Below, one piece after another: positions 1 through 27,523 of a stretch of DNA of 42,770 bases (the first letter of the stretch is position 1; the number at the start of each line of letters is the position of its first letter). The position numbers and the translations under genes are program-made. Source of the DNA: a virus. The notes beneath the pieces are model-generated. The model did not search any database. It worked only from the letters and a program-made list of their open reading frames with translations, and was not told the origin of the DNA. Location: positions 1 through 42,770 of IMG/VR virus record IMGVR_UViG_3300042691_034392, one strand, 5' to 3'.

Positions 1-1100
1 CTCATTTTCTCAACGTTTACTTCCGTTTCAAATGCCTGAAGAAGATAGTTGAATACCTTTTGTGGATTGGATTGCTCTACCCAACTTAGCGGAATCAATC
101 GGTTTGGGGTACGGATACAATCACACTCTACACTCTCATCCCAAAAACGGTCTATGAAATCGGCCACCTTATCAAAGTATGGGATTTGTCGGAACTCATC
201 ATCAATACCACCATATAATAATCGGAACGTTACCCCCTTAGCCTCATCAACCCCACATCCATATTGGTCAGCCAACCATTGGTGAACGTTACCATCGGGC
301 ATATCGTATCCCACCAACTTACCGATTAGTCTTGGGTGGTAAGCGTTATAGTCCATTTGTAGGAATATCCCATCGGCTATGAAACAATCTCTACTACCAT
401 CCGATTTATTGAGGGCGGCATAGTTCACACCAGCATGTCTATTTGAAGGTCTACCAGTTACAGTGAACGGATTATATTCGGTGAATACCGTATTACCTTT
501 TAAGTGTTTGTGGGCTTGTGGCCATCTATCAATAAATTTTTCCCCAACGACACGGATTCCAAATCCTTCAATCTGAGAAAGGGTAGGAATGAATATATCG
601 TTGTACCAATTATAAGTTTTACTCTTTTGGTTTGTATGTTTTAGTAATTCGGGTTCTACTGCTTCCGCAAGTTTAAGAATGGGAATGGATTGAATGATGT
701 CTTCTCTATAACCTTTGTGTAATAAAGGAGCTACTAAGTGTTGTAATGGTTGAGAGTAGTCTATTGTTTCACCGGTCTTTAAGAAATAAGCGGTGTCAAC
801 ATCATTCAGTCCTTCCCTAAGTGTAACAAAAGATTGGAGTAGCTTTTTCTTTTGAAATACCCACTTTTCACCGGCGGTATTCAACGCACCTTCTATTTGC
901 TCATTAGAGAGTGATAGAGCGTCTGTGTGTTGTTGTGGTAGTATATACCTGTCCGATTGGGTTCTTACGAATATAAACGAAATAGTGGTGTTTAATGGGT
1001 GTTTATCATTATCTACCCATAGTGGATACCAAATGGAAGCTTCAGTTTCCAGCTTTACCTTTAATTCGTTTAATTCATCAATAGACTCAACAATTCTCAT
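1..1100 (-). CDS. Family A DNA polymerase, N-terminal 366 codons (3' end beyond the window)
   Basis: I translated the minus strand from ATG at 1100; it stays open to the left edge. The product is a DNA polymerase I-type (family A) replicative enzyme. Visible landmarks are T-x-TGR (G216, R217) followed by a VNYAAL segment matching the family's 'NLQNIP' region, motif A around D250-Y251, and motif B (K288, F292, Y296-G297). Near the edge, NYLLQAFETE corresponds to the 'QGTAAD' helix; the catalytic motif C (HDE) would lie outside the window. Only about 210 residues precede the TGR motif and I see no exonuclease motifs, so a proofreading domain is probably absent or on another protein. Two usual dNTP-site residues differ: the motif A Glu position is His255 and the motif B Arg position is Val284. 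The gene follows the tmRNA terminator and has its own host-type promoter, with the ATG only 5 nt after the -7 box. T4 itself uses a family B enzyme, so this lineage differs. Confidence 0.85.
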   Translation of the reverse strand, partial: MRIVESIDELNELKVKLETEASIWYPLWVDNDKHPLNTTISFIFVRTQSDRYILPQQHTDALSLSNEQIEGALNTAGEKWVFQKKKLLQSFVTLREGLNDVDTAYFLKTGETIDYSQPLQHLVAPLLHKGYREDIIQSIPILKLAEAVEPELLKHTNQKSKTYNWYNDIFIPTLSQIEGFGIRVVGEKFIDRWPQAHKHLKGNTVFTEYNPFTVTGRPSNRHAGVNYAALNKSDGSRDCFIADGIFLQMDYNAYHPRLIGKLVGYDMPDGNVHQWLADQYGCGVDEAKGVTFRLLYGGIDDEFRQIPYFDKVADFIDRFWDESVECDCIRTPNRLIPLSWVEQSNPQKVFNYLLQAFETEVNVEKM

Positions 1101-1105
1101 AACCA

Positions 1106-1137
1106 CAAATATACAAAAAAAATCCCAAACTACCAAA
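1106..1137 (-). promoter_or_regulatory. Bacteroidota-type promoter for the polymerase gene
   Basis: On the minus strand TTTG (1137-1134) is followed after exactly 20 nt by TATATTTG (1113-1106). This fits the known Bacteroidota consensus TTTG / TAnnTTTG. The upstream box lies in the loop of the tmRNA terminator hairpin. The start codon at 1100 is so close that the transcript would be leaderless or nearly so. Confidence 0.55.
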
Positions 1138-1153
1138 TAATAGTTCGGGATTT
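1115..1153 (-). terminator. Rho-independent terminator of the tmRNA gene
   Basis: A 13-bp inverted repeat (1153-1141 pairing with 1132-1120) is perfect in RNA if one G-U pair is allowed. It has an 8-nt loop and is followed on the minus strand by a run of eight T (1122-1115). It starts 2 nt after the encoded CCA end of the tmRNA. Confidence 0.85.
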
Positions 1154-1155
1154 AA

Positions 1156-1534
1156 TGGTGGAGATGGTGGGATTCGAACCCACGTCTTACGAAGTAACCA
1201 TAATACCAGCGTTTCACACGTTTAGGATAAGGTTTAATCTTATTCACCTTCCAAAATAATTGGGGCCGTTTGGTTAGAACAGCGTTTCCACCAACTGATT
1301 TAAAGTTTCAGTAAACTTAGGTTTCACTTCTTGTTAAATTCCACGAGTGATGCGGAAGGTGATTAGGCTGCTACAGCGTAATCAGCACCTACGAATGCCA
1401 TAACGTCATCGAAGGTCCAAGTTGATAATTCAACTTCGTCATTTATTGTTTGATTCCGAGATTAAAGTGGTTGGAGAACCATCCCACTACGTGTGATACT
1501 ACAATTCGCATCGCAATCAAGTCCAGTCATCCCC
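1156..1534 (-). ncRNA. ssrA: tmRNA (transfer-messenger RNA), phage-encoded
   Basis: This RNA rescues stalled ribosomes and tags the unfinished protein for proteolysis. The 5' end GGGGAUG (1534 downwards) pairs over 7 bp with CAUCUCC before an encoded ACCA at the 3' end (1156). The third pair is G-U, the alanine identity element. A T-arm of GUGGG, UUCGAAU, CCCAC is intact. The internal reading frame runs from about 1443 (AAT GAC GAA) to TAA at 1365-1363. It gives a tag of at least 26 residues ending FDDVMAFVGADYAVAA; the exact resume codon is uncertain by one to three codons, since ACA and ATA lie in frame just before. Bacteroidota tags as I recall them are about 9-10 residues and end YALAA, so this tag is long and ends AVAA. 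The gene has its own promoter and terminator. Confidence 0.93.
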
Positions 1535-1547: not shown

Positions 1548-1579
1548 CAAATATACGAAAAATTATTTACTCTCCCAAA
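1548..1579 (-). promoter_or_regulatory. ssrA: Bacteroidota-type promoter for the tmRNA
   Basis: TTTG (1579-1576) is followed after 20 nt by TATATTTG (1555-1548), the same arrangement and spacing as at the polymerase promoter. The mature tmRNA 5' end is 13 nt beyond the -7 box, leaving room for a short leader removed by RNase P. The TTTG box overlaps the last codons of the upstream 124-aa gene. Confidence 0.7.
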
Positions 1580-1941
1580 TTATTTTTTGAGAATTGTAAA
1601 AGGTTTGGAAGATACAATCTAAGTGCGGGTAAATTATTACTAGCGTACCTAACTACTTTATCATTAATTTTTTTAATTTCTTCATCTGTTCCTGATATTT
1701 TCCAGTTTACAGTTGTAGTGATATATAATGTGTTTGCTGTAAATGTACTAAAAGAATTTTCACTTATTTCATAAATTATTCCATTTTTATCATTTGCTCT
1801 CTGAACAAAATATCTTCTTATATAACCAACTTTATAATCATCTTCTGTAGGAGTTGGTACAAATGGTTTAATTTTAATTAATTTAAAATCGCTAGGTATT
1901 CTAATTATACTTCGGTATCTTTTAACTAATCCGTTCATCAT
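1567..1941 (-). CDS. Conserved-type virion/baseplate-associated protein, 124 aa
   Basis: No function can be read with confidence. The protein is soluble, with no signal peptide or membrane segment. A basic N-terminus (VKRYRSI) leads into a segment rich in aromatic residues (YIRRYFVQRANDKNG, about 40-54), followed by predicted beta strands and a closing amphipathic stretch ending in LYLPNLLQFSKNN. This pattern reminds me of small uncharacterised proteins beside baseplate genes in marine T4-like phages, but I cannot verify that. It is the last gene of the tail operon, starting 4 nt after the hub gene stop, so a virion or tail-assembly role is inferred from position. Its end overlaps the -33 box of the tmRNA promoter. 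Confidence 0.7.
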   Translation of the reverse strand: MMNGLVKRYRSIIRIPSDFKLIKIKPFVPTPTEDDYKVGYIRRYFVQRANDKNGIIYEISENSFSTFTANTLYITTTVNWKISGTDEEIKKINDKVVRYASNNLPALRLYLPNLLQFSKNNLGE

Positions 1942-4570: not shown

Positions 4571-7132
4571 TTATTTTCCTTTTACTTTTGGTGTTGATGC
4601 TTTTGCTGTTTTCCCGCCTTTATCATCTCTTTGTTTTAAAGTACCACTTGCTTTTTTGTTTTGTGAAGCTTTTTTCTTTGCATCAGCTTTATTTTTCTTT
4701 TCATCTCTTGCTGTTGTATATGGATTTATACCCTCTTCAAAACTATATAAACTATATGTGTTATTAACACCTTGTATAAATTTAACACCAATAGAAACAT
4801 CAATAATCATAGGTGCTTGGTAGCCAGGTGAAAATCCTCCAATTTCCCAAGGTGTAGAATCATCTGCTGTATATGAAAGCGAATCTATAAAGCAATGTTT
4901 ATTTTGGAATACGCTTCCTCCAGACTTACCATCACCCATACTAAAAAATAGTAGTGGCGGAGTTATTGCACTTCCTGCTCCACTTGCTATTGGATAAACC
5001 ATTTTTGCCAATGCTTCTAATTTATCCCACATACGGTCATGCTCAGTAGGATTTGTTGAATAAACTCTCAAATTAAAAGATAAACTTCTTTCAATTCCAG
5101 TGTATGTATAAAGATTGTATGGAGAACCTATAAATTTATTTGTATCCCAACTTGGTGTAAATGTTTCTTGATAACCAGTAATAGTTCCTCTAAAACTTAC
5201 TGTTGGTCCAGCAAAGTGAGAAAATCTAACCAACATAAAATCATAGTTAGCTATATCTTTACCTTTAGCATCACTTTCTTCACCAACTGCTTTTTCATTT
5301 ACAAAATCACCTTTTTTTGTATCAATACCCAATTTAGATGCTATACTAGCACTTCCACTCGCAAATGGATTTCCAAATACTTTTTCTTTTTTTGTTGGAA
5401 CACCACTATTACCAACACCAACTTTATTTAATTGTTGAGATGCTTTTGCTCCTGCTAATTGACTTGTTTGTGTACCATTTAATAATTTTTGCAATTCCCC
5501 ATCTTGTCCAACTAACTGAGTATATTTTTTTATTTCCTGATTAATTGGTACTCCTTTATTTCTTATACCTATTGCATTTTTAGGGTCAGGTTTATTTACT
5601 CTTGCTCCTTCTTGAGTTGCATTTAAAACAGAAGATAAATCATTTCTAGTTTTAACATCCGTTGAAGTTTCATCCACAGTATTTGAATATGCAGTAGATG
5701 GTACTGATGGGTCATTTTTTAATAATGGGTCAACATCTGCTTTTGGTGCATTTGCTTGTTCCTTTTGTCCTAATTTTACCTGTCCTAATTTTCTAGCATT
5801 TACTAAATCAGCTGGATTTGGTTTTTTTAATGTAGGTACACTATTTGGAAGTCCGCTTGTTGGTACGTTTGCCGATGTTGCTAATTTTCCAAATAAATCT
5901 TTTGGGCTTTTAGGTAAAGCTTCTTTTAATCCAGAAACTGAATTTTTAAATTGTGATGTTTTATTTAAACTTGTATTTGTGGTTGCTGGATTTTTATTTT
6001 CATTTTCAGCGGTTGTGCCTGTTAATTTTAATAATTTACTTGATAAATCATTTCTTAACATCGGGTCATCTGCTAACTCATCTACAGTATTTGAATATGC
6101 AGTTGTTGGTACATTAGGGTCATATTTTAATGCTTTGTTATCTTTCGCATCTTTTATTTTTACACCAACATCAATTTGACCTTGCTTTCTTGATTTTGCT
6201 AAATCTATTGGGTCAGGCGTTGGTACATTAACACCACCATCTGGTCTTCTACCAGGTGTTGCTTTTAATTGTTGAGTTTCTTTTCCTAATTGATTTTTAC
6301 CTGTATAAATGTTTGCTACATCATTAAACAAATCAGGATAATAAGCTTTATAAGCTGAATATTGACTTGATAAATCGTTTCTTAAATTTATATTTTCATT
6401 TATAAAATCAATAGTTGATGAATATGGTGCTGAACTATCATATTGAATTTCCGATTCTGATTTTTTTGCAAAGTTTTGTTGTCCTTGCTTTCTAGCTCCA
6501 AATAATTTTTTACGAACTTCCTGCTTTGCCAAACTGATAACACCCCCTAATACCTGATTACCTATTTGTTTTGGCGTACCCTTTGCATTTTTTGCTAATA
6601 ATCTACCTACCAATGTTCCTCTAGCATCTTCTTTAATTTCAGCAAGAGTTGTCATCGTATCGGGCTCTTTACCTACTTTAAATTTATCATTTAATGATAT
6701 TCTAGTTGGTATCAAAATTTGAGGTGGAACAACTCCAAGTTTAGCGCCTAATTTAGATACTTTACCCTTTGCTTTTTCTATTAAATTACCTAACAATCCA
6801 GAATCACCAGCCGTACCAGTTGCGTTTTTCATTTCGTTTACTGCATCGGTGGATTGTCTTGTTAATCTTATTAAATCAGTTCCGTAAATAATTGGTGAAG
6901 ATAAAGTTCTAATAACTCTTAAACCCGTTGTTTCTTGCTCAAAAAAACTTTCAGATTTTCTTACTGATAAACCTTGTCTTATTTTTGTTGCTGCTCTGAA
7001 CGGAAGATTAAGTGCCCCAATATAAGGTCTTATCGGTGCATCTTTACTATTGCGCACATCATATTCTACCGCTGCGGTTTGTCCACTTGAAAGTGTTTTA
7101 TTTCTAAATAATTCTAATAATGTCCTTCCCAT
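4571..7132 (-). CDS. Tail/baseplate structural protein with repeated linker modules, 853 aa
   Basis: Three regions are visible. The N-terminal 220 residues are mixed alpha/beta (starts MGRTLLELFRNKTL). Residues about 225-620 are low-complexity and Lys/Asn/Pro-rich, with three copies of a module that pairs an RKxGQ motif with (Y/N)D(P/S)..P....YS.T.D.......RNDLSS, at about 231-252, 338-365 and 473-500. Residues about 630-800 form a compact conserved-looking domain (FRGTITGYQETFTPSWDT, then YTYTGIERSLSFNLRVY). The last 50 residues are Lys-rich. The start codon overlaps the tape-measure stop (TAATG). A position between the tape measure and the LysM protein is where tube-initiator or distal tube proteins (T4 gp48/gp54) are found, so such a role is possible. 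The repeated central linker is not something I recognise. Confidence 0.65.
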   Translation of the reverse strand: MGRTLLELFRNKTLSSGQTAAVEYDVRNSKDAPIRPYIGALNLPFRAATKIRQGLSVRKSESFFEQETTGLRVIRTLSSPIIYGTDLIRLTRQSTDAVNEMKNATGTAGDSGLLGNLIEKAKGKVSKLGAKLGVVPPQILIPTRISLNDKFKVGKEPDTMTTLAEIKEDARGTLVGRLLAKNAKGTPKQIGNQVLGGVISLAKQEVRKKLFGARKQGQQNFAKKSESEIQYDSSAPYSSTIDFINENINLRNDLSSQYSAYKAYYPDLFNDVANIYTGKNQLGKETQQLKATPGRRPDGGVNVPTPDPIDLAKSRKQGQIDVGVKIKDAKDNKALKYDPNVPTTAYSNTVDELADDPMLRNDLSSKLLKLTGTTAENENKNPATTNTSLNKTSQFKNSVSGLKEALPKSPKDLFGKLATSANVPTSGLPNSVPTLKKPNPADLVNARKLGQVKLGQKEQANAPKADVDPLLKNDPSVPSTAYSNTVDETSTDVKTRNDLSSVLNATQEGARVNKPDPKNAIGIRNKGVPINQEIKKYTQLVGQDGELQKLLNGTQTSQLAGAKASQQLNKVGVGNSGVPTKKEKVFGNPFASGSASIASKLGIDTKKGDFVNEKAVGEESDAKGKDIANYDFMLVRFSHFAGPTVSFRGTITGYQETFTPSWDTNKFIGSPYNLYTYTGIERSLSFNLRVYSTNPTEHDRMWDKLEALAKMVYPIASGAGSAITPPLLFFSMGDGKSGGSVFQNKHCFIDSLSYTADDSTPWEIGGFSPGYQAPMIIDVSIGVKFIQGVNNTYSLYSFEEGINPYTTARDEKKNKADAKKKASQNKKASGTLKQRDDKGGKTAKASTPKVKGK

Positions 7133-15082: not shown

Positions 15083-15430
15083 TTACTTTTTCAATAACTG
15101 TTCTTTTAATTCTTTAATTTCAGCTCTTGCATCATCTAATTCTTTCTTCAATTCTTTAACAGCTTCAACTAATAATGCCGGAATACCTCTATCTCTTACA
15201 GCTAAGAATCCATCACCACCTTCTCTTACTAATAAAGGTTCTACCTCTTGAACTTCTTGTGCTATGAAACCTATATCTGCTTTTAGTTTAGTATAGTTCC
15301 ATTCATCAGTATCTTCTTTCCAATCAAATTGTACACCTCTAAGTTTTGTTACCTTATCTAATGCACCTTCAATTGGTTGAATGTTTTCTTTCTTACGAAT
15401 ATCCGATGGTGAACCATAAGCGATAATGTT
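15083..15430 (-). other. Peptidase S74 intramolecular chaperone domain (C-terminus of the 4146-aa fibre)
   Basis: Ser4040 (codon 15406-15404) lies in S-D-I-R-K-K-E-N-I, the family's nucleophile motif. It is followed by FDWKED, IGFIAQEVQEVEPLLV, IPALLVEAVKELKKEL and a charged coiled coil. Length and order are complete, so self-cleavage just before Ser4040 is expected. Confidence 0.9.
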
Positions 15431-18400
15431 ATCTGATGCTATAATTGCACCATATTGTCTCAATGCTATCACTGCACCACCACCTCTGTTACCAGAGTGG
15501 ATACGAACACCAAATGAGAAACGCATTGCACAATAACCATCATTCAAGTCAACAATATCACCATCATCTGCTAATATGATACCATTTCCAGTTACGTTTG
15601 CTCTAGATACCCAAATACCACCAGCAAATCTAGCACATTGGTCGGATGCTGAGTTAGGGTCCATATAGTATGATGAATCATTTGAATCATAGAATATTGC
15701 ACCATAGATTCTACTATCTATATAGAATATTGAGTTACCACCTTCTCTACCTAAGTAAGCAAATTGGTTATTACCAGAGGTATTATCCATCCATCTACAA
15801 TATGAGTTACCATTATTATCATTGGCATCTAAACGTAGAGTAATATCATTAAATGAATTTATAGAAACTGAATCAGAACCATTACCATTTAAATCGGTAG
15901 ATGCCAATCCATGTACAGTCCAAGAATCGTAAGTAGCATTCCAGTCAAATGATAAGTAGAAAATTCTAGATATATAAGATGAATAAGAACCATAGTTACC
16001 CCAAATAGAATATTCTGAACCAACTCTGAATGAACCTTGTGCTCTTATGTATGCATCACAATAAATGTTTCTACCATTATATGTACGAAGCCATGTACCA
16101 TCTGTCATATGCCATCCACCACCATATGATTCCCAATAGATACCACAAGAACCTTGTGCTCTAAACCAATCATTTACATATGTACGAACAAATTGAGAAC
16201 TTCCATCAGGATTTACATAATATCCGGTGTTATTACCATCATACCAATAACCTGCGTATATATCACCACCACCTACGTTTCTATTATATAATACTATTTC
16301 ATACCAAGGATATGTTGTACCACCCCATTTACCTCTTAACCACCAACGGCTTTGTGCATCATGTGCACCCACCATTTGGAAACCATATCCAGCACCACCA
16401 TCGGATGATGCGTAGTGTAATCCAGATTGAATACCCTGTGCATGGATATATCCACCACCCTGTGGGTGTCCAGTACCACCACCCCAAATATCTAATCCTG
16501 TAAATCCATACTTCCATGCACCATCCCAGTTTCCATAACTAGTTCCCCAACCTTGCGTTCCAGTCCAATAGTTTGAATCACCTGTAATATTAGGTCTAAC
16601 ATCACCATTATCCATTGCTCTCCAAGGTGCGTTCCATCTTTCTCTAGCAGAAGATGATGGCCTCCACATATTACTTGTACTATTAGGGTCAACGTAATAT
16701 CCTGTATCCTGTTGGTCATAAATGAATGGGAAGTAAGATGAATCATATGCATACATCCAACCATCTACTCTCAAGTTAGCATTACCACCAGTTGAAGAAA
16801 TACGGAATTCAGAAGTACCACCACTAAGGTCAATACCTGGTTGAGAATCCCAGTGAGTTGCACCTCTTAATTGCCACCAACCAGCGCCACTATAAAATCT
16901 ATATCCATTACCTGCTGAGTTAGGGTCTATATAACCAGCTGTATCATTTGCATCATAGTAAATAGTTGCGTAGAAATCGTTAGAGTATTCATTAACTCCG
17001 TACATTGCTATCTTCTTCCAAGAAGAATAAGATGCCCATGTGTTTCTAAACCAAAGTCCTTGAATAGGTCCACCAACCATCTGCCATCCGTATCTATAAT
17101 CAGAACCACCAGTAAAGTGATATGCCTGAACACCTACCCAATGCGATGTACCAGCAGGTTGGTTAGCTGGGTTACTCCATGTATCAAAGAATCCACTTCC
17201 CCAATTACCCAAATCATTCATATTAGTTGTACCCCAACCTCTAGCGCCAGTCCAATATCTAGTATCACCTGTATAATCCCATCTAGGAGTATTACCCTCA
17301 TGTCCTGCTAAACCAAAAGATGCTAAAGTTCTATTGGTAACTCTGTTCATATTGGTTGTACCATTTCCATCGAAATAGTATCCTGTATCACCATTATCAT
17401 AGAATATTGGTGCTCTAAATGATTCAGCTGCCTCTATATAAGTTGTTCCCCAACCTATACTTCTACCCATTAATATTCTTCCACCACTGTATATGAATAC
17501 AGATTCTACAGAGTTTCCACTATCATGTATTGTAAACTCCCATTCATCTGCACAGTTTGCTAAGATACCAGCAGTAATACTACCTGCCCAACTACCATTA
17601 TAAAAGTTATAGTTGTAAGATGTACTACCAATTTGTAAAACACCAGGATAACCGTGATTGTAGTTATTTGTACCTACACATAAGTTTGTAATGTATGATT
17701 GACCATTAGGGTCCATATACCTTCCGGTATCATTATAATCATACATTATTGGTGAACGCATTTGGTTATATGCGTAGAAAATTCCAGAAGAAAATTCACC
17801 CCAGTTATTATATGCACCACCACCAAAATAGATTTGTGAACCATCATAGTAGTTTAGATATAATCCATATCCACTTGCAGCGTCAACGTGTAAGTTACCA
17901 TTTGTAGTTGATACCGATGCAACATCACCATTATCAACGTATCCGTTTCTACCATCACCACCAACCAATAGGTACTTACCCCAAGTTGGATTAGGCCCAT
18001 GCAATGCCCCACCTCTAATTCTTAATGCTGATTGTGATGTTGAGTTAGGGTCTAAATAATATCCACTATCATTTCTATCGTAATAAACATCTGCATATAA
18101 TCCACCAACAACTGATAAACTATTTGGAACTGTTAATTGTCTTAAGTCACCAGAAATCCAGCTATAAGAATCCGATTCAATACCTGCTGTGTATCCTTCT
18201 GCAACATCCATTACACCACTATAATATGCACCATTTTGTATTTTTCTTAATACAACTTGTCCATATGACCAAGAAGAACCACCATTACCAATTACTATAC
18301 AATATCTACCATCTTTAACACCAACTCTGACAGGTTTATCTGTATAACCAACAACGTTTGCTCCAATGTTATACCAAGCACCATTCCAATTGTGTCCACC

Positions 18401-21400
18401 AACAAATACGGTACAACAATGGTTTCCACTATATTCATAAATGTCAACTTCAGCATGAATCATACCATAGTTACCAATTCCACCAGGGAATTTAATAACC
18501 ACTGCTCCGGTCGCACCACCACCTTGTCCCCAAACTGCGTAAGGTCTACCAACTAAGTTTTGTTGTTTTATACCCCCTGCAATTCTTAAAGATGTTGCTG
18601 TTGTGTTTGGATTTAAGAAATAACCGGTATCGTTATAATCATAATAAATTGGTGATTGTATTTGGCTAAAGTTGTAAAGTACATTATCTATTCTTACGTT
18701 ACCGTCAGTTTCACCAAATGATGCAATTCTACTACCTAAGTCTTCAGTATTAAAGATACGGATACCACCATAACCTGGTTGTGCACCCATACGAATACCA
18801 GTGTGCCACCTTAAATCTAATTTGGTGTAGTTGCCACCATAATTATCTAAGTTAGTACCAATATAGTAGTTATCTGCGGCGTCATTATCACCACCACCAA
18901 ACATCAATCTTACACCAGGTTCAGAACTATATGCGTTTGCAGAAGTATATCCACCAATCGTTACTCTTTTTTGGTTTGATGGGTGTATATTTACTGCCCA
19001 ACTACCAGGCCCACTTAATAATCCAAATCCGTTTGAATCAAAATATAGGTAACCTCTTGAACCAGCACTTCTATCAAAAATTTGCCATCCATTATCTGAA
19101 CGTGATTTGATGTATGTTGAGTTGTCAGAGAAAATACGAGTATCATATGATTGCCAATAAATACCAGTTGCTCCTTGCGGTCTAAACCAATCATCTGCTA
19201 ATACATAACGAAGTTGGGATGTACCATTAGGGTTTAAATAATATCCGGTATTATCTTGGTCATAGTAAATTGTTGCGTACATTGCCCCCAATGATTGAAC
19301 ATAATCATATCCTATAATCCAACCATCTACTCTTAAATTTAAGTTACCACTATCAGAACTCATACGGAATTCACCTGCTGCTCCAATAATATCAATACCA
19401 GAAGTACCCCATTCAGTTATAGTTCTCCATCTCATTCTACCACCATAAGAAGAACCATTGTAGTAAGGAACGGTAAATTGATTACTCATATCCTCTCTAA
19501 CATTTTCTCTTACTCTTAGGTTATGATAGTAAGTTTTACTTCCAGCAACTGAACCATAACAAGTACCAAATCTTACGTGTACTTTTCTAGTGTTTGAGTG
19601 CATTACACCATCACTAACATATGTTGCTACATCAGCGGTGTTATTTGCAAATCTATCTCCATATGCATCACCAGCGTTAGCAGGAGTTCTCCAATTTCTT
19701 AATGTTGCTCTTAATTGAATCCACGTTCCACCAGTATTTCTATATGAACCATGGAAATATGGATTTGCTGTTAAATAGTTTCCCGATGAGTTTAATTCAT
19801 GCCATCCAAAATAAATTGCATCGTTACCTGTACTCCTAATCCAAACACTAAATTCATAATCTTTTTCTGGGTCAACATCAATCCATTCTGAAGTGTACCA
19901 ATTATAACAAGCTCCACCATTACCATTACCAGTTGAAACGTGCGCTTGTACAATAGAACCATCAATAAATGTAATTGCCTCTCTACTGCTTGAGTTAGTA
20001 CCAATGTTAGTACCAACAACTTGCATATTTGCACCACCTAAGTTACGAGCCTGAACAGAGAATAGTACAGAGTAACTATTAGGGTCTAAATACCAAGATG
20101 TATCATTTTGGTCATAGAATATAGGTGCTCTCATCGAACCATATGCAAAAAGGTTGGATGAACTATCCATATATCCTTTTTGTGAGTTACCAATTCTAAA
20201 CTCAATATAGTTTTCAGACATTAATGATAGGTAACTATTTGAATAAACACCAGGCTGACCCCATGCTGCTCCCAATCTTAAATCAGATACACCATTACCT
20301 TCTGCGTTTTGTACTCTAAATCCAGAATCATTTGTATAGAATGTAACTCTGTTTGAAGAACCACCTCTTAATACAAATCCACCATCAGCAGGGTTTACAT
20401 AAAATCCTGTATTATTTGAATCATAGAATATTGGTGCGCGCATATCGTCTGCGGCTTGCAAATATCCTTCAGAATAAGTGTAAGTGCTATAAAAATACAT
20501 TCTATATGCATTATTTCTAGCAATTCTTAAATCGTGGTTTGTAAATGAACCTACAACAGACAATCCACCAACATGTGAGAATATACCTGTTTGAATACCT
20601 TCATTTCTTGCATAAACTCTAAAAATAGAATGCGGTCCGTTTGATAAATGTAATTGAGTTCCCCAACCACCTGTATCAACCCAATCACTACCACTATCAC
20701 CAATATATAAGTTTCTAATACGTGATGATTGGTGCATATTTAGATAGAAACTGGTATCATCGCTATCATAGAATATAGGTGCTCTAAATGATTGGTTAGA
20801 TGTTGCTATACCAGGGAATGTCACACTTTGTACACCCCAACCAACGTTCTCACCAATAATCCAGTTTAGGTTTTCATAAGAAATTTGACCTAAGTTTTGG
20901 TTTTCATCTAATGCTGTAATTGATGATTTAGCTGATGACCTTAACATAATGTTAGAACCACCCGTAGCACCATAACCTCTACGGTCAGCTGCCCCACTAC
21001 CAACAATCAAATCAGCATCAACGTATCCACCATATGCACCATTTCTAGAAACTTCAATTTTATTTAATAAGCTTCTATCAGCTGGATTTGTGAAATATGT
21101 TGTATCATTTTGGTCATAGAATATTGGTGCTCTTGCATCACCAAACACAAATAGTGTATTATCTATTCTTACGTTTGCATCGGTTTCACCAAACGATGCA
21201 ATTCTTGCTCCTAAGTCTTCATTGTTGAATATACGAATACCACCATATGAAGGTTGTGCCCCCATACGAATACCAGTGTGCCATCTTAAATCAAGTTTTG
21301 AATAGTTACCACCATAGTTTTCAAAGTTAGTACCAATATAGTAATTATCTCTAGCATCATCGTTACCACCATTAAACATCAACCTTGCACCAGCATTACT

Positions 21401-24400
21401 AGGTGCGCTCATTCCACTTTCACCACCTATTGTTACTCTGTTATTGCTTGTTGGGTGAATATTTATTGCCCAACTTCCACCTCCACTTAATAGTCCAAAT
21501 CCAGCTGAACTAAAATAAACATATCCTTTAGGTGTTGCACTTCTATCCTGAATCATCCAACCATTATCTGAACGAGATGTTATTACAGAAGAGTTTTCAG
21601 AGAATATTCTTGTATCGTAAGATTGCCAATAAATACCTGTTGCTCCTTGCGGTCTGAAGAAATCATTGGCAAATACTGCGCTCATAAAAGATGAACCATT
21701 AGCATTTATATAATATGCTGTGTTATCTCTATCGTAGTATATTGGTGAGTAAACTGCTGCAGATGCCTCATAAGTTCTAACTTGCTCAGTAGCAACATCA
21801 GTAATATCATATACCGTTGCCGATGCTAAGTAAGTGTAGAATGTAGATGTGTTACCACCAACAATATAAAAGAAGAATGTTGATGAGAATGATGCTGTTC
21901 CAGAGTTTACAACTATTGCATAATCTTGATACTGACCAGTACCTGCCTGACTTGTTTGCCAAGTAGCTGTTCCGTTTGCACCAATTGAGTTAGATGCCCA
22001 CTCAACACTTCTACCAGAAGGTATTTTCATTTTGAAAACACACAATAATCTTCTAGAAGCAGGGGATGTATTTGTTGCAAAGTACCAACCACCATAACCA
22101 GGTGATGTACCCGCAGATGTTGCTGGTGAGTGATTTATTTCAATTACATATCCACTAAGATTTGGCGGTCCACTATGTCCATCTAAGAATGAACTATTTT
22201 TTCTAGTATGAGTTACAGCTGAACCGCCTGCGTTGTTGTAAACACTAATACTATTATTACCATCTCTAAAATCCTCATCAGGATATAATTTTCTTCCTGC
22301 CGGTTTTAATAGTCCCCAAACTGCATTTATATTTCCGGTAACAGTATTACCACCAGCACCTACTAAAACCTGTTGTCCCTGAATTGATAATTGATTAAGA
22401 TTAGTAACTCCATTTGGATTTACATAGAATGATGTATTATTAGAATCGTAGAATATCGGTGCTCTAAAATCACCATATGCCTCTACATAGTTAGCGTAAC
22501 TTCTTAATTGCCATTGGTCACCTTGTCTAATTTCAAATCTATCAGAATAACCTAAAATAGAGTTTGATGGTGAACCACCTGTACTATTTGCTGTTGCTCT
22601 AAATGCAATTACAGATACACCATTTGCTGCCGGATATAATCTAATGTTTTCATTGTAGTTGTTGTTGTTAGCTGTATTATAGCTTAACCACATATTATTA
22701 CCAATGAAAATACCATCAGCAGGTCCGTTTAATTGAATTGGAACTAATCCAGTTACAGGATCATAGAAACCAGTTGAAAGAGAGTTGTTATTCGGCATCC
22801 AAATATATGAATCCGAACCTTGCATTTTAATATCACCCTGTATTTGTACATCATTTAAGTTTGATGTAGAAGCAGGGTCTAAATAATATCCTGTATTTGC
22901 AGAGTCTCTAAATTGTGGTGCATCAAAACTACTAGCTGCTCCAGCAATACCACTATCGTTTGCATAGAATTCAACAGTTGTCCAGCCACTATCTACTACT
23001 TCAAAATATCTACCTGCTCCACTACCCAATTGTACAGTTAATACACCAGCTGGTCTATCAGATGCTCTACCAATCCATGCCTCACCACTATTTGTTTGTG
23101 AGTTATTAAATGTACCAACTTGAATTCTACCCTGAAGATTTGCAGATATACCATTTGCACCATCCGAAGGATTTATAAAGTATGCGTTGTTTTGTCTATC
23201 AATTAATGAATCTGCGTAAATTGGTCCCTGAACCGTTACTCTATCGAATTGTGCAATAAGAACATCATTTGTATTAAATGCACTATAAGTTCTTTTAAAT
23301 CTTAAACGTATAGATTCATTACCATCAAAATCATCTTCCGATTGTAGAATAAGAGCTCCAGTATTTGAACCACCAGGAGATTCACCATAAATTTTCCAAC
23401 CATCATCATTACCATTAGCTTGTCCAATGTAATAAGTTGGTTGAGTTGCTACACCAGAATAAGCCGTGCCCACAGGATTTTGTGGCATTGTAAATATGTT
23501 ACCCGTAATTGTAGCGTGAGTTACGTTATCAGTTGTTCTAAGGTTTTGGTTCATTAAGTGAACTTCTGTCAAACCTTGTCCAGTGTTAACTTGTGCTGCT
23601 ACTAAGTTACCAGGTATTGTAAAGTTACCACTAGCATCTAACTGACCTATTTGAGTCCAAGTTAATGTTCTACCACCTGCACCTGCCCCAGCATATCTAA
23701 ATGTAAATCCACTATTGAATACTAAATACGTTGCTGTATCACCACCAGGTGCTATAAATGAATCTGATGTTCCTGTATGTCTTACGTTATATCCAATACC
23801 ACCATATTGCCCACCACTATAACCTGCAACTAAACCTCTACCTTCAGAACCGCCACTACCTAAGTTTACATTATATGTACCAGTTGCATCGTAAAAATTA
23901 GTACCTCTTACACTTCCGTTTGCAATAAAGTTAGTATCTGCATACCAAACATCACTTCCCTCATCCCATATAAATTGACGAGTTGCCTGATTACCTCTTT
24001 TAATTTCAATACCTGCATTTTCAGTTGGTGCAGTTGCTGCTCCAATGTCCGCATTTAATGTGATGATATTATCACCAACATTTAAAGTTGTTGTATTAAT
24101 ATATGTTGTTGTACCACTTACAGTAAGGTCACCACTAATTGTAGCGTTACCAGTAACTGTTAATGTAGTACCATCAAATCTTAAATTTGCTTCAACGGTT
24201 GCGTTTGGTGCAGCTCCGTTTAATGTGATTACACCATCGTTGGTATTTCCAGTCAATGATAATAATCCAGAAGAACCCGATGAACCAGCAGAGCCGGATG
24301 ACCCGCTTGAACCACTGCTTCCGCTTGAGCCGCTGCTTCCACTACTTCCGCTTGAACCGCTGCTTCCGCTTGAGCCGCTGCTTCCGCTTGAACCAGATGA

Positions 24401-27400
24401 CCCGCGTGTTCCAGATGAACCACTACTGCCGCTTGAACCACTACTTCCGCTTGAGCCACTGCTACCGCTTGAGCCGGATGTTCCACCACTACCACTTGAG
24501 CCACTGCTACCGCTTGAGCCACTGCTTCCACTACTACCGCTTGAGCCGCTGCTACCGCTTGAACCTGATGTGCCTCCGCTTCCGCTTGAGCCACTTGAAC
24601 CACTACTTCCACTACTTCCGCTTAAGCCGCTGCTTCCACTACTACCGCTTGAACCACTACTGCCGCTTGAGCCACTGCTTCCACTACTTCCGCTTGAGCC
24701 AGATGACCCACGTGTTCCAGATGAACCGCTACTTCCTGATGACCCGCTTGAACCACTACTTCCGCTTGAACCAGAAGAACCTGCAGTTCCAGAATCACCC
24801 GTTCTACTAAATTGTACAATTAATTGTGCGTTATTAACCGGCAATGTACCACTAATATAAGCTACAGGTATTTTATAATATCCCGAACCAACAACCACCG
24901 CACCATTTACTCTGAATATGTTTACTACCGTACCACTATCTCTACTAACTAATGTAAGTGTACCTCTATTTGTTGATGTAGTTGAATCATCCCAACCATC
25001 AAACCAAGAAGTTAATGTATTACCACCAACATCAACGTTATCAATAAAGATTTGGTTTACTGATGCTATTGCTGTATTATTGTATGATACTAATCCATTA
25101 CCAGGATCTATATCGGTTGTTGTTGTACTAAAATTATATCTTATACCCCCACCTTGTCCGCTTGAACCGGATGAACCACTACTACCACTACTACCACTTG
25201 AGCCACTGCTTCCTGATGAACCACTTGAGCCACTGCTTCCACTACTTCCGCTTGAACCAGCACTTCCACTTGCTCCAGATGAACCGCTACTTCCGCTTGA
25301 CCCAGATGAGCCACTACTTCCACTAGTACCAGCAGAACCTCTTGTTCCCGATGACCCGCTACTTCCGCTTGAGCCACTTGAACCTGAACTTCCGCTACTA
25401 CCGCTTGAGCCACTGCTACCGCTTGAGCCACTGCTACCCGATGAGCCCGATGAACCGCCTGCTCCTGTTATACCACTACTGCCACTACTTCCGCTGCTAC
25501 CACTTGAACCACTACTTCCGCTGCTGCCACTTGAACCACTACTTCCGCTTGAGCCACTGCTACCGCTTGAGCCGCTTGTACCAGATGTACCACCTGCACC
25601 CGTTACACCACTTGAACCGCTTGAGCCACTGCTTCCGCTTGAGCCACTTGAACCGCTGCTTCCGCTTGAGCCGCTTGAACCAGATGTGCCGCTGCTTCCA
25701 GATGAACCTGATGTACCAGCATTACCTGTTCTTGAAAAAGAAACAATTAATTGTGCACTATTGGATGGTAGAGTACCTGCAACATAAGATACAGGAATTT
25801 TATAATATCCAGTTGCTGCTGTTACAGCTCCTGTTATAGTAAATGTGTTTACAACTGTACCACCATCTCTGCTCGTTAAAGTTATAGTACCTCTATTATT
25901 ACCAGTTGTACTATCATCCCAAGTATCATACCAAGTTGTTTGTGTATTACCTTGTCCATCTAAGTTATCAATATAAATAAATGATACCGAACCTATTACT
26001 CCATTGTTATATTGAACAATACCATTACCAGGATCTGCATCAGTTATTGTTGTACTAAAATTATATCTTGCTCCGGCTGCCTGTCCGCTTGAACCACTAC
26101 TGCCACTTGAACCACTGCTTCCCGATGAACCGCTACTTCCACTACTTCCGCTCGAGCCGCTGCTTCCTGATGAACCGCTACTGCCGCTTGAACCACTGCT
26201 TCCGCTTGACCCAGATGAGCCAGATGTTCCACCACTTCCGCTTGAGCCACTGCTTCCACTACTTCCGCTTGAGCCACTACTTCCAGATGAGCCGGATGTG
26301 CCGCGAGTTCCCGATGAACCAGAACTTCCGCTTGAGCCGCTACTGCCGCTTGAGCCGGATGTTCCACCACTACCGCTTGACCCAGATGAACCGCTTGAAC
26401 CGCTACTGCCGCTTGAGCCACTGCTTCCACTACTACCGCTTGAGCCGCTGCTTCCACTTGAGCCGCTGCTTCCGCTTGTGCCAGATGAGCCTGTTGTACC
26501 GCTTGAACCACTACTTCCGCTTGAGCCGCTTGTGCCAGACGTACCTGAAGTACCTGAAGTTGCTGCCGCAAATCTTCTACTAATTCTTCCTGTTGTTGTA
26601 TTAAGAACTAATACTTCATTTGTTGTATTATCCGTTGGTAGAGTATTTGGTGATACAAATATTGAACCACTTATACCTACACTACCAGTAAATTCATGCA
26701 AATCAGTTGTTGCATCGCCAAACTTATTTGAACCAGATGCGTATATAATTGAAGAAGTTACATATGTAGCTTGTAATTCAGTTGTTGTAATTTTTCCACC
26801 AACATTTAAATTACCAGTTATAGTTTCATTACCACTTACAGTTAAATCCCCACCAATTCTACCAGAACCAGTAACAACCAACTCACCACGAATAGATTGT
26901 GAGCCAGTTACATATACACTTCCTAAAATATTTTGTGAGCCAGTTACAGCTAAGTTACCAGCAATAGTTTGAGAACCGCTAACTTGTAATGATTCTTTTA
27001 TAGATACTCCTGTGTTTATTTCTAAACCTCTATTTGGAGAAATTTGTGCTACAGCTGAACCTGATTTTAATCGGTTAATGTCACCAATTGAATCGGCTTG
27101 AATATTAAATAATCCACTACCATCACCTCTAAATAACGAAGCGGTAATTGAAGATGAAATAAATACTGAACCAGTTACTCTTAATGAGCCCGTAGTAAAT
27201 ACTCCATCGGTAGTTACACTTACTACCGTAGAACCGCTTGCTATTTGAGTAATATTTGTTAATTTACTACCATCACCAATAAATGAACCACTAAAAGAGC
27301 CTGTAAATTGTGAACCGCTAAATGTATTAGCTACAATCGTTGAACCGCTGATTAATGAAGCGGAAATGTTTTGTGCTCTAACGTTTTGTGAAGCAGTTAT

Positions 27401-27523
27401 ATTTCCCGTTACACTCAAATATTCATTTGAAAAAGCAACTCTACTCTGACCATCTACGTCAAGCTCAATTAAGCTTTTGCTTACTAAATTTAATCCATTA
27501 GGGTTGTTACCTATAAACTTCAT
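15083..27523 (-). CDS. Giant tail fibre protein with C-terminal S74 self-cleaving chaperone, 4146 aa
   Basis: A host-recognition fibre built of modules. Residues 1-320 are beta-rich GSF.GSF/VTGS repeats, shared with the 4040-aa fibre. Three Gly-Ser-Ser collagen-like tracts (about 320-482, 600-789, 908-1087) are split by two copies of a 115-aa domain (about 483-597 and 790-907; both contain DPGNG, WDDSTT and YYKIPV). From about 1400 on, about 17 copies of an (A/S)PI(F/Y)YD.NDTGYY..PN.TS motif alternate with variable beta domains, including a carbohydrate-binding-like jelly roll (about 2494-2677) and a duplicated block of about 175 residues. The last 107 residues are a peptidase S74 intramolecular chaperone: catalytic Ser4040 in SPSDIRKKENI, then IGFIAQEVQEVEPLLV and a terminal coiled coil. 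In known cases this domain drives trimer assembly, then cuts itself off. The gene is intact over 12.4 kb. Confidence 0.9.
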   Translation of the reverse strand: MKFIGNNPNGLNLVSKSLIELDVDGQSRVAFSNEYLSVTGNITASQNVRAQNISASLISGSTIVANTFSGSQFTGSFSGSFIGDGSKLTNITQIASGSTVVSVTTDGVFTTGSLRVTGSVFISSSITASLFRGDGSGLFNIQADSIGDINRLKSGSAVAQISPNRGLEINTGVSIKESLQVSGSQTIAGNLAVTGSQNILGSVYVTGSQSIRGELVVTGSGRIGGDLTVSGNETITGNLNVGGKITTTELQATYVTSSIIYASGSNKFGDATTDLHEFTGSVGISGSIFVSPNTLPTDNTTNEVLVLNTTTGRISRRFAAATSGTSGTSGTSGSSGSSGSSGTTGSSGTSGSSGSSGSSGSSGSSGSSGSSGSSGSSGSSGSSGSGGTSGSSGSSGSSGSSGSSGTRGTSGSSGSSGSSGSSGSSGSSGSGGTSGSSGSSGSSGSSGSSGSSGSSGSSGSSGSSGSSGSSGSSGSSGSSGQAAGARYNFSTTITDADPGNGIVQYNNGVIGSVSFIYIDNLDGQGNTQTTWYDTWDDSTTGNNRGTITLTSRDGGTVVNTFTITGAVTAATGYYKIPVSYVAGTLPSNSAQLIVSFSRTGNAGTSGSSGSSGTSGSSGSSGSSGSSGSSGSSGSSGSSGVTGAGGTSGTSGSSGSSGSSGSSGSSGSSGSSGSSGSSGSSGSSGITGAGGSSGSSGSSGSSGSSGSSGSSGSSGSSGSSGSSGSSGTRGSAGTSGSSGSSGSSGSSGSSGASGSAGSSGSSGSSGSSGSSGSSGSSGSSGSSGSSGSSGQGGGIRYNFSTTTTDIDPGNGLVSYNNTAIASVNQIFIDNVDVGGNTLTSWFDGWDDSTTSTNRGTLTLVSRDSGTVVNIFRVNGAVVVGSGYYKIPVAYISGTLPVNNAQLIVQFSRTGDSGTAGSSGSSGSSGSSGSSGSSGSSGTRGSSGSSGSSGSSGSSGSSGSSGSSGSSGLSGSSGSSGSSGSSGSGGTSGSSGSSGSSGSSGSSGSSGSSGSSGSGGTSGSSGSSGSSGSSGSSGSSGSSGTRGSSGSSGSSGSSGSSGSSGSSGSSGSSGSSGSSGSSGSAGSSGSSGLLSLTGNTNDGVITLNGAAPNATVEANLRFDGTTLTVTGNATISGDLTVSGTTTYINTTTLNVGDNIITLNADIGAATAPTENAGIEIKRGNQATRQFIWDEGSDVWYADTNFIANGSVRGTNFYDATGTYNVNLGSGGSEGRGLVAGYSGGQYGGIGYNVRHTGTSDSFIAPGGDTATYLVFNSGFTFRYAGAGAGGRTLTWTQIGQLDASGNFTIPGNLVAAQVNTGQGLTEVHLMNQNLRTTDNVTHATITGNIFTMPQNPVGTAYSGVATQPTYYIGQANGNDDGWKIYGESPGGSNTGALILQSEDDFDGNESIRLRFKRTYSAFNTNDVLIAQFDRVTVQGPIYADSLIDRQNNAYFINPSDGANGISANLQGRIQVGTFNNSQTNSGEAWIGRASDRPAGVLTVQLGSGAGRYFEVVDSGWTTVEFYANDSGIAGAASSFDAPQFRDSANTGYYLDPASTSNLNDVQIQGDIKMQGSDSYIWMPNNNSLSTGFYDPVTGLVPIQLNGPADGIFIGNNMWLSYNTANNNNYNENIRLYPAANGVSVIAFRATANSTGGSPSNSILGYSDRFEIRQGDQWQLRSYANYVEAYGDFRAPIFYDSNNTSFYVNPNGVTNLNQLSIQGQQVLVGAGGNTVTGNINAVWGLLKPAGRKLYPDEDFRDGNNSISVYNNAGGSAVTHTRKNSSFLDGHSGPPNLSGYVIEINHSPATSAGTSPGYGGWYFATNTSPASRRLLCVFKMKIPSGRSVEWASNSIGANGTATWQTSQAGTGQYQDYAIVVNSGTASFSSTFFFYIVGGNTSTFYTYLASATVYDITDVATEQVRTYEASAAVYSPIYYDRDNTAYYINANGSSFMSAVFANDFFRPQGATGIYWQSYDTRIFSENSSVITSRSDNGWMIQDRSATPKGYVYFSSAGFGLLSGGGSWAINIHPTSNNRVTIGGESGMSAPSNAGARLMFNGGNDDARDNYYIGTNFENYGGNYSKLDLRWHTGIRMGAQPSYGGIRIFNNEDLGARIASFGETDANVRIDNTLFVFGDARAPIFYDQNDTTYFTNPADRSLLNKIEVSRNGAYGGYVDADLIVGSGAADRRGYGATGGSNIMLRSSAKSSITALDENQNLGQISYENLNWIIGENVGWGVQSVTFPGIATSNQSFRAPIFYDSDDTSFYLNMHQSSRIRNLYIGDSGSDWVDTGGWGTQLHLSNGPHSIFRVYARNEGIQTGIFSHVGGLSVVGSFTNHDLRIARNNAYRMYFYSTYTYSEGYLQAADDMRAPIFYDSNNTGFYVNPADGGFVLRGGSSNRVTFYTNDSGFRVQNAEGNGVSDLRLGAAWGQPGVYSNSYLSLMSENYIEFRIGNSQKGYMDSSSNLFAYGSMRAPIFYDQNDTSWYLDPNSYSVLFSVQARNLGGANMQVVGTNIGTNSSSREAITFIDGSIVQAHVSTGNGNGGACYNWYTSEWIDVDPEKDYEFSVWIRSTGNDAIYFGWHELNSSGNYLTANPYFHGSYRNTGGTWIQLRATLRNWRTPANAGDAYGDRFANNTADVATYVSDGVMHSNTRKVHVRFGTCYGSVAGSKTYYHNLRVRENVREDMSNQFTVPYYNGSSYGGRMRWRTITEWGTSGIDIIGAAGEFRMSSDSGNLNLRVDGWIIGYDYVQSLGAMYATIYYDQDNTGYYLNPNGTSQLRYVLADDWFRPQGATGIYWQSYDTRIFSDNSTYIKSRSDNGWQIFDRSAGSRGYLYFDSNGFGLLSGPGSWAVNIHPSNQKRVTIGGYTSANAYSSEPGVRLMFGGGDNDAADNYYIGTNLDNYGGNYTKLDLRWHTGIRMGAQPGYGGIRIFNTEDLGSRIASFGETDGNVRIDNVLYNFSQIQSPIYYDYNDTGYFLNPNTTATSLRIAGGIKQQNLVGRPYAVWGQGGGATGAVVIKFPGGIGNYGMIHAEVDIYEYSGNHCCTVFVGGHNWNGAWYNIGANVVGYTDKPVRVGVKDGRYCIVIGNGGSSWSYGQVVLRKIQNGAYYSGVMDVAEGYTAGIESDSYSWISGDLRQLTVPNSLSVVGGLYADVYYDRNDSGYYLDPNSTSQSALRIRGGALHGPNPTWGKYLLVGGDGRNGYVDNGDVASVSTTNGNLHVDAASGYGLYLNYYDGSQIYFGGGAYNNWGEFSSGIFYAYNQMRSPIMYDYNDTGRYMDPNGQSYITNLCVGTNNYNHGYPGVLQIGSTSYNYNFYNGSWAGSITAGILANCADEWEFTIHDSGNSVESVFIYSGGRILMGRSIGWGTTYIEAAESFRAPIFYDNGDTGYYFDGNGTTNMNRVTNRTLASFGLAGHEGNTPRWDYTGDTRYWTGARGWGTTNMNDLGNWGSGFFDTWSNPANQPAGTSHWVGVQAYHFTGGSDYRYGWQMVGGPIQGLWFRNTWASYSSWKKIAMYGVNEYSNDFYATIYYDANDTAGYIDPNSAGNGYRFYSGAGWWQLRGATHWDSQPGIDLSGGTSEFRISSTGGNANLRVDGWMYAYDSSYFPFIYDQQDTGYYVDPNSTSNMWRPSSSARERWNAPWRAMDNGDVRPNITGDSNYWTGTQGWGTSYGNWDGAWKYGFTGLDIWGGGTGHPQGGGYIHAQGIQSGLHYASSDGGAGYGFQMVGAHDAQSRWWLRGKWGGTTYPWYEIVLYNRNVGGGDIYAGYWYDGNNTGYYVNPDGSSQFVRTYVNDWFRAQGSCGIYWESYGGGWHMTDGTWLRTYNGRNIYCDAYIRAQGSFRVGSEYSIWGNYGSYSSYISRIFYLSFDWNATYDSWTVHGLASTDLNGNGSDSVSINSFNDITLRLDANDNNGNSYCRWMDNTSGNNQFAYLGREGGNSIFYIDSRIYGAIFYDSNDSSYYMDPNSASDQCARFAGGIWVSRANVTGNGIILADDGDIVDLNDGYCAMRFSFGVRIHSGNRGGGAVIALRQYGAIIASDNIIAYGSPSDIRKKENIQPIEGALDKVTKLRGVQFDWKEDTDEWNYTKLKADIGFIAQEVQEVEPLLVREGGDGFLAVRDRGIPALLVEAVKELKKELDDARAEIKELKEQLLKK
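15600..23220 (-). repeat. Array of about 17 YYD-NDTGYY-PN motifs in the 4146-aa fibre
   Basis: About 17 irregularly spaced copies of (A/S)PI(F/Y)YD.N(D/N)T.(F/Y)Y(L/V)(N/D)PN.(T/S)S are separated by 40-190-residue variable segments. At DNA level the plus strand shows recurrent words such as 'catagaatattggtgctct'. Each motif probably marks a shaft turn between globular inserts. Confidence 0.75.
24255..26570 (-). repeat. Three Gly-Ser-rich collagen-like tracts of the 4146-aa fibre
   Basis: Gly occurs every third residue, the other positions being almost only Ser, with some Thr and Ala and no Pro. The tracts occupy about 26570-26075, 25720-25155 and 24800-24260. Ser is written with AGT, AGC and TCA mixed and Gly with GGA, GGC and GGT mixed, so the DNA is repetitive but not a perfect tandem array, and it is more GC-rich than the surrounding DNA. 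Confidence 0.85.

Follow-up and report, generated by a model that had tools for sequence, protein, structure and literature searches.

The 42,770-nucleotide DNA analysed here (the window, a fragment of the virus record IMGVR_UViG_3300042691_034392 in IMG/VR) carries on its minus strand a complete gene for transfer-messenger RNA (tmRNA, ssrA) that encodes an unusually long tag. On comparison with its relatives, the remarkable part of this tag is a conserved 14-residue core that precedes the ending and is common to a large group of uncultivated phages. At even odds (a probability of about 0.5), the functional tmRNA would append a two-part degron, composed of a docking helix and a host-readable C-terminal degron. 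The sequence-only reading, made from the letters of the window without database searches, had described a tag that is long and unlike host tags, which stands, but had located its unusual part in the length and the ending ADYAVAA, which is incomplete: relatives differ in this ending, and there is nothing remarkable about it.

The tmRNA gene and its tag frame

ARAGORN calls a single tmRNA in the window, at c[1156,1534], with the tag DEVELSTWTFDDVMAFVGADYAVAA, and the Rfam covariance model RF00023 matches end to end at the same coordinates (84.3 bits against a cutoff of 47, E 2.1e-31, model positions 1-374). Both programs had been named beforehand as checks, and both report the gene; the refuting outcome named with them, a lack of any covariance-model match, did not occur. 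Minus-strand positions 1534 to 1156 are a complete one-piece ssrA gene of 379 nucleotides including the encoded CCA, and the G3-U70 alanine pair, T-arm and CCA that had been picked out from the letters are present:

1156..1534, minus strand: tmRNA (ssrA) gene, 379 nucleotides including CCA (ARAGORN; Rfam RF00023)
1528..1534, minus strand: acceptor stem 5' strand GGGGAUG, which holds G3 of the G3-U70 alanine pair (sequence)
1160..1166, minus strand: acceptor stem 3' strand CAUCUCC, followed by ACCA at 1159-1156 (sequence)
1167..1183, minus strand: T-arm GUGGG-UUCGAAU-CCCAC, perfectly paired (sequence)
1363..1440, minus strand: tag frame from resume codon GAC to stop TAA, DEVELSTWTFDDVMAFVGADYAVAA plus stop (ARAGORN coding part 95-172; frame-specific conservation)
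1384..1425, minus strand: conserved tag core STWTFDDVMAFVGA, predicted self-capped amphipathic helix (found in all 109 matches to ADYAVAA plus stop; AlphaFold2, low global confidence)
1361..1383, minus strand: tag-end hairpin GAUUA-C-GCUG-UAG-CAGC-C-UAAUC over the codons DYAVAA, the stop and 2 nucleotides (covariation)

The minimum free energy of the gene has a z score of -2.5 against shuffles, and its pseudoknots are visible solely through the Rfam alignment, with low posterior probability in mid-alignment. The tag frame is open from resume codon to stop and ends in a proteolysis-type C-terminus. It codes for 25 residues, or 26 when the tmRNA-borne alanine is counted, so that the earlier figure of at least 26 residues ending in ADYAVAA is right with this alanine included. 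A short tag, consisting of ADYAVAA alone after a later resume codon, was rejected: the codons upstream of this ending are conserved as peptide, and GAC directly follows a conserved AATAAAT stretch.

A conserved core among phage tmRNAs

Relatives were collected by two scans of IMG/VR. The first looked, with a degenerate DNA pattern, for the tag end ADYAVAA plus stop and gave 109 matching stretches, with the same long tag upstream of this end in 109/109; ARAGORN calls a tmRNA in most of these loci, the remainder being largely tags close to the end of the locus. The second used the inner-core pattern with the tag end left free and gave at least 119 stretches, adding tags with other ends (DYALAA, DLAVAA, DEYALAA, NEYALAA, EVAIAA, DEATFA, GEVLMAA and more). 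As judged from these sequences, well above 100 contigs of related phages retain the core, in tags of 23-26 residues with a modular order of resume codon, core and variable ClpX-like end (DYAVAA, DEYALAA, DLAVAA and others). The 14-residue core has the consensus S[TS][MFW][TSN]F[ED][DS]x[ML]xF[VI]GA.

The aligned set comprises 119 distinct genes with a median pairwise identity of 61% (minimum 46%). Their acceptor stems are paired in 119/119 at six of the seven positions and in 118/119 at the seventh, with many compensatory changes, and G3-U70 is kept in 118 of the 119. All five T-stem pairs are kept in every gene, again with compensatory changes, in a set whose members needed at least four of the five pairs for the T-arm to be located. 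By the comparative tests run, the phage tmRNA is functional.

Over the 14 codons before ADYAVAA, the ratio of non-synonymous to synonymous polymorphism (pN/pS) is 0.35 in the tag frame, compared to 1.23 and 2.02 in the other frames. This value comes from the first-scan set, in which the core played no part in selection, and lies below the minimum of 0.52 reached by 100 column permutations; the larger set gives 0.27, a figure biased by that set having been partly selected on the core. Insertions and deletions within the tag alignment are whole codons. Because pN/pS is low in the tag frame only and the indels preserve the frame, the core is regarded as conserved as a peptide, and by these comparisons the inner core is under peptide-level selection.

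The residue before the first F of the core is only T, S or N (T usual; S and N rare), all good helix N-caps, the residue preceding this N-cap position is only M, F or W, acidic residues follow it, and a Gly is nearly invariant at the C-end. The core reads as a self-capped amphipathic helix, with a capping box and hydrophobic staple at the N-end and Gly at the C-end. In the AlphaFold2 prediction for a 32-residue window peptide, run as a single sequence, the helix starts exactly at the F after T (predicted template modelling score, pTM, 0.28).

The tag end has an additional RNA-level feature, a hairpin in which 95.3% of cells are paired among the relatives, a level equalled by 0/500 shuffles. 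Compensatory changes are of the types UA/AU and UA/CG, and two pairs vary on both sides; for example, the Asp codon changes from GAU to GAC together with a change of the stop from UAA to UAG. Third codon positions are fixed in this part of the tag. This hairpin, whose 3' strand holds the stop codon, probably corresponds to helix 5.

A second long phage tag type, of about 31-32 residues and with another end, was also seen (ADYESAGFTAEDFAQMDGESLYHGSERKPAAV and ANYEAAGFTAEDFATMDGESLYHGERELVRA in the author's reading; L191:1501-1947 and L374:5300-5700), and is misread or missed by ARAGORN.

Hosts and bacterial tags

This large phage probably infects Bacteroidota. The promoter motif TTTG-N17..22-TAnnTTTG occurs in 20/105 distinct upstream regions of the related tmRNAs, compared to a mean of 0.2 and a maximum of 2 in shuffles, an excess that points to a Bacteroidota host. 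This assignment leans mainly on the promoter, because the named relatives closest in tail sheath are mixed (a Microcystis phage, an uncultured 484-kb phage and a Flavobacterium phage).

The ARAGORN tags of 30 Bacteroidota genomes have 8-10 residues, apart from one 14-residue call (ERSQPFSKSSRAGN), an apparent misread, in agreement with the 9-10 residues or so given in the sequence-only reading. A pattern scan of Bacteroidota gave mostly GENNYALAA, by design of the pattern. At 25 residues, the window tag falls outside the short Bacteroidota type of about 8-10. The pattern F[VIM]GADYAxAA plus stop had 0 matches in genomes of 84,980 species, the core pattern matched twice in 396 Bacteroidota genomes, at sites that ARAGORN does not call as tmRNA, and tblastn with the tag found no match among named phages and plasmids.

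A proposed two-part degron and its alternatives

Established from sequence and comparison are the gene with its alanine pair and folded termini, the reading frame, peptide-level selection, the hairpin at the tag end and the absence of the tag from the bacteria searched. In the proposed mechanism, the alanylated tmRNA would enter a stalled ribosome with the use of host alanyl-tRNA synthetase, EF-Tu and SmpB, and translation would resume at GAC, so that the product would gain A-DEVELSTWTFDDVMAFVGADYAVAA. The final residues (-YAVAA) would be read by host ClpXP, while the preceding [MFW]-[TSN]-F-[ED]-[DS]-x-M-x-F-[VI]-G helix would dock on a specific protein, possibly a phage or host adaptor or protease. 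The phage would thereby free stalled ribosomes in the infected cell and channel their products into a favoured pathway of degradation. Both the docking and the protein docked on are inferred. An altered affinity for ClpXP and rescue on the phage's own mRNAs, both put forward in the sequence-only reading, are plausible as suggestions.

The two-part degron is favoured because the end varies while the core persists and because the sampled host tags, of 8-10 residues, lack the core. A further point in its favour is a phage-encoded SmpB (PF01668, 147 bits; L371:5453-5896, on the 294-kb contig G004), which one member of the group has about 5 kb from its long-tag tmRNA. Several points weigh against it. 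All loci in which the end varies had been picked by means of the core, which keeps the comparison of a more conserved core with a less conserved end from being fully unbiased. In the single-sequence AlphaFold2 prediction of pTM 0.28, the helix extends beyond the Gly as far as residue 30, leaving the C-terminal stop unsupported. The host is itself deduced from sequence. An adaptor-like or universally common neighbour gene was not found at the loci, where neighbour families differ, a ClpX-like unfoldase was not found among the phage proteins, and the phage ClpP tested matches head-maturation proteases best.

The search for a partner covered 13 large contigs, with a tail sheath in 11, SmpB in one and ClpP-like proteases in three. 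The ClpP near the tmRNA in G006 and G008 was set aside as evidence, its best PHROG match being a head maturation protease. The lone AAA protein considered as a ClpX-like unfoldase was read by inspection as MoxR/CobS-like and lies beside a VWA-like protein. The possibility that the core is common to other phage proteins was dropped, with just two pattern-selected matches, taken as chance. When five long-tag genomes were compared to two relatives without tmRNA, one family was present in 5/5 and 0/2, and a profile of this family (about 65 residues; members 60-100) was found in 15/23 long-tag contigs and 0/3 relatives without the tag core, in a comparison in which many families were tested and contig completeness is unknown; the family (L385:6039-6320 and relatives) is a weak lead as a partner candidate. 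Flavobacterium phage immuto and the five long-tag genomes of this comparison all have a GroES-type co-chaperonin (L393:566-883).

The core might provide an orthogonal address, bound by a dedicated phage adaptor or a retargeted host protease and giving phage-controlled proteolysis of the products of ribosome rescue in infected cells, apart from the host SsrA route; this suggestion is a tentative one. It is rather unlikely that the core merely acts as a direct degron of greater strength, with host Lon or ClpXP recognising its aromatic and hydrophobic residues and no adaptor involved. The core is indeed rich in F, W and M, and a precedent is known in M. florum, which lacks ClpXP and whose ssrA tag, of atypical length and sequence, is degraded in a Lon-dependent way (PMC8138137), but particular positions of the core are conserved (T/S/N cap, F, M, F, G), more strictly than a hydrophobic patch requires, and the ClpX-like end is also kept.

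A different fate conferred by the core, such as localisation, sequestration or a nascent-chain effect in the exit tunnel that slows or regulates release, appears improbable. With about 25 residues, the tag has a length of the order of the ribosome exit tunnel, and the failure to find a degradation partner at the loci or among the phage proteins would fit such a role; against it, nearly every tag keeps a small hydrophobic ClpX-like end, and the core had no match in Pfam or among solved structures (PDB), in searches that are weak for so short a peptide.

Conservation for the RNA structure of the mRNA-like region, with an incidental peptide, is suggested by the covarying hairpin and fixed third positions of the tag end, but for the core this explanation is largely refuted by the comparisons, since third codon positions vary most within the core and pN/pS is well below 1 in the tag frame only. 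Chance capture of a host tmRNA useless to the phage, conceivable given a tmRNA match in 61/61 Bacteroidota genomes surveyed, is refuted on comparative grounds by the conservation of every functional feature tested among diverse phage genes, by the tag not being found in hosts and by the occurrence of host-type GENxYALAA tags in only 2 viral contigs.

This widespread class of long tags suggests that ribosome rescue and protein turnover are processes which phages modify for their own benefit. If true, a helix able to direct proteins to degradation in Bacteroidota would be a useful tool, and the tag is small enough for a direct test by reporter fusion.

Gene neighbourhood

The tmRNA is located between a myovirus virion block (gp25, sheath, tail tube and baseplate genes) and a DNA-polymerase-like gene, confirming the earlier placement between virion and replication genes, and it is flanked by a promoter motif and a terminator-like stem, as had also been proposed:

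1548..1579, minus strand: tmRNA promoter TTTG-N20-TATATTTG, Bacteroidota-type, ending 13 nucleotides upstream of the tmRNA (motif match)
1120..1153, minus strand: intrinsic-terminator-like hairpin of 15 pairs plus T run, directly 3' of the tmRNA (sequence)
3..1136, minus strand: DNA-polymerase-like gene downstream of the tmRNA, cut by the window end (phrog_17, E 2.3e-6; same neighbour in 23 loci)
1567..1941, minus strand: 124-residue gene upstream of the tmRNA, function not assigned; commonest neighbour in relatives, 32 loci (phrog_6546)

The window contains four matches to the promoter motif, a number not above chance; both of those with TATATTTG directly precede genes. The second TTTG-N20-TATATTTG promoter, at 1137-1106, lies before the DNA-polymerase-like gene and is overlapped by the tmRNA terminator. 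Used as bait, the baseplate-region protein at 4571-7132 of the window did not find relatives. The minus strand also contains two giant open reading frames, at 15083-27523 (4146 codons) and 29616-41738 (4040 codons), the latter opposed by an open frame of 1113 codons on the other strand (30004-33345).

Comparison with known systems

Phage tmRNAs are known from Bacillus phage G and from mycobacteriophages including Bxz1, Cali and Catera, among others (PMC4131195), and the methylophage Melnitz has a two-piece tmRNA (PMC9004378). Such tmRNAs are proposed to keep translation running, and the passages of the two papers that were consulted describe no long conserved tag core. The gene reported here is likewise a complete ssrA on a phage, but is one-piece and from phages with probable Bacteroidota hosts. 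In a tmRNA database of 97,179 sequences, the commonest tag length is 10 residues and the short extreme 2, and the available portion of its description does not mention a long viral class (PMC11915505). A search of the literature for the string ADYAVAA found nothing relevant, and a widespread virus-borne class of 23-26-residue tags with a strictly kept inner core was not found described in the literature searched, which covered few subscription papers.

The one-piece tmRNA of Bacteroidota (GENNYALAA, ANDYSYAMAA etc.) shares with the phage gene the RF00023 architecture, the G3-U70 pair, a resume codon after the predicted first pseudoknot region and a ClpX-like tag end, whereas its tags have 8-10 residues and those of the phages 23-26, of which 14 form the conserved core. 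In the phages, the tag-end hairpin holds the stop codon in its 3' strand; in E. coli, this codon is found in a helix-5 loop. The tag of the Mollicutes bacterium Mesoplasma florum, about 27 residues long, is similarly unusual and longer but unrelated in sequence, and the phage tag differs in keeping a ClpX-like end in hosts that have ordinary short tags.

The closest parallel in logic is the SspB-delivered SsrA degron of Proteobacteria (AANDENYALAA), which places a segment for the adaptor ahead of the end that ClpX binds; in E. coli, SspB binds the part of the tag before LAA. We know of no SspB in Bacteroidota. Compared to this two-part degron, the phage core is longer and predicted to be helical.
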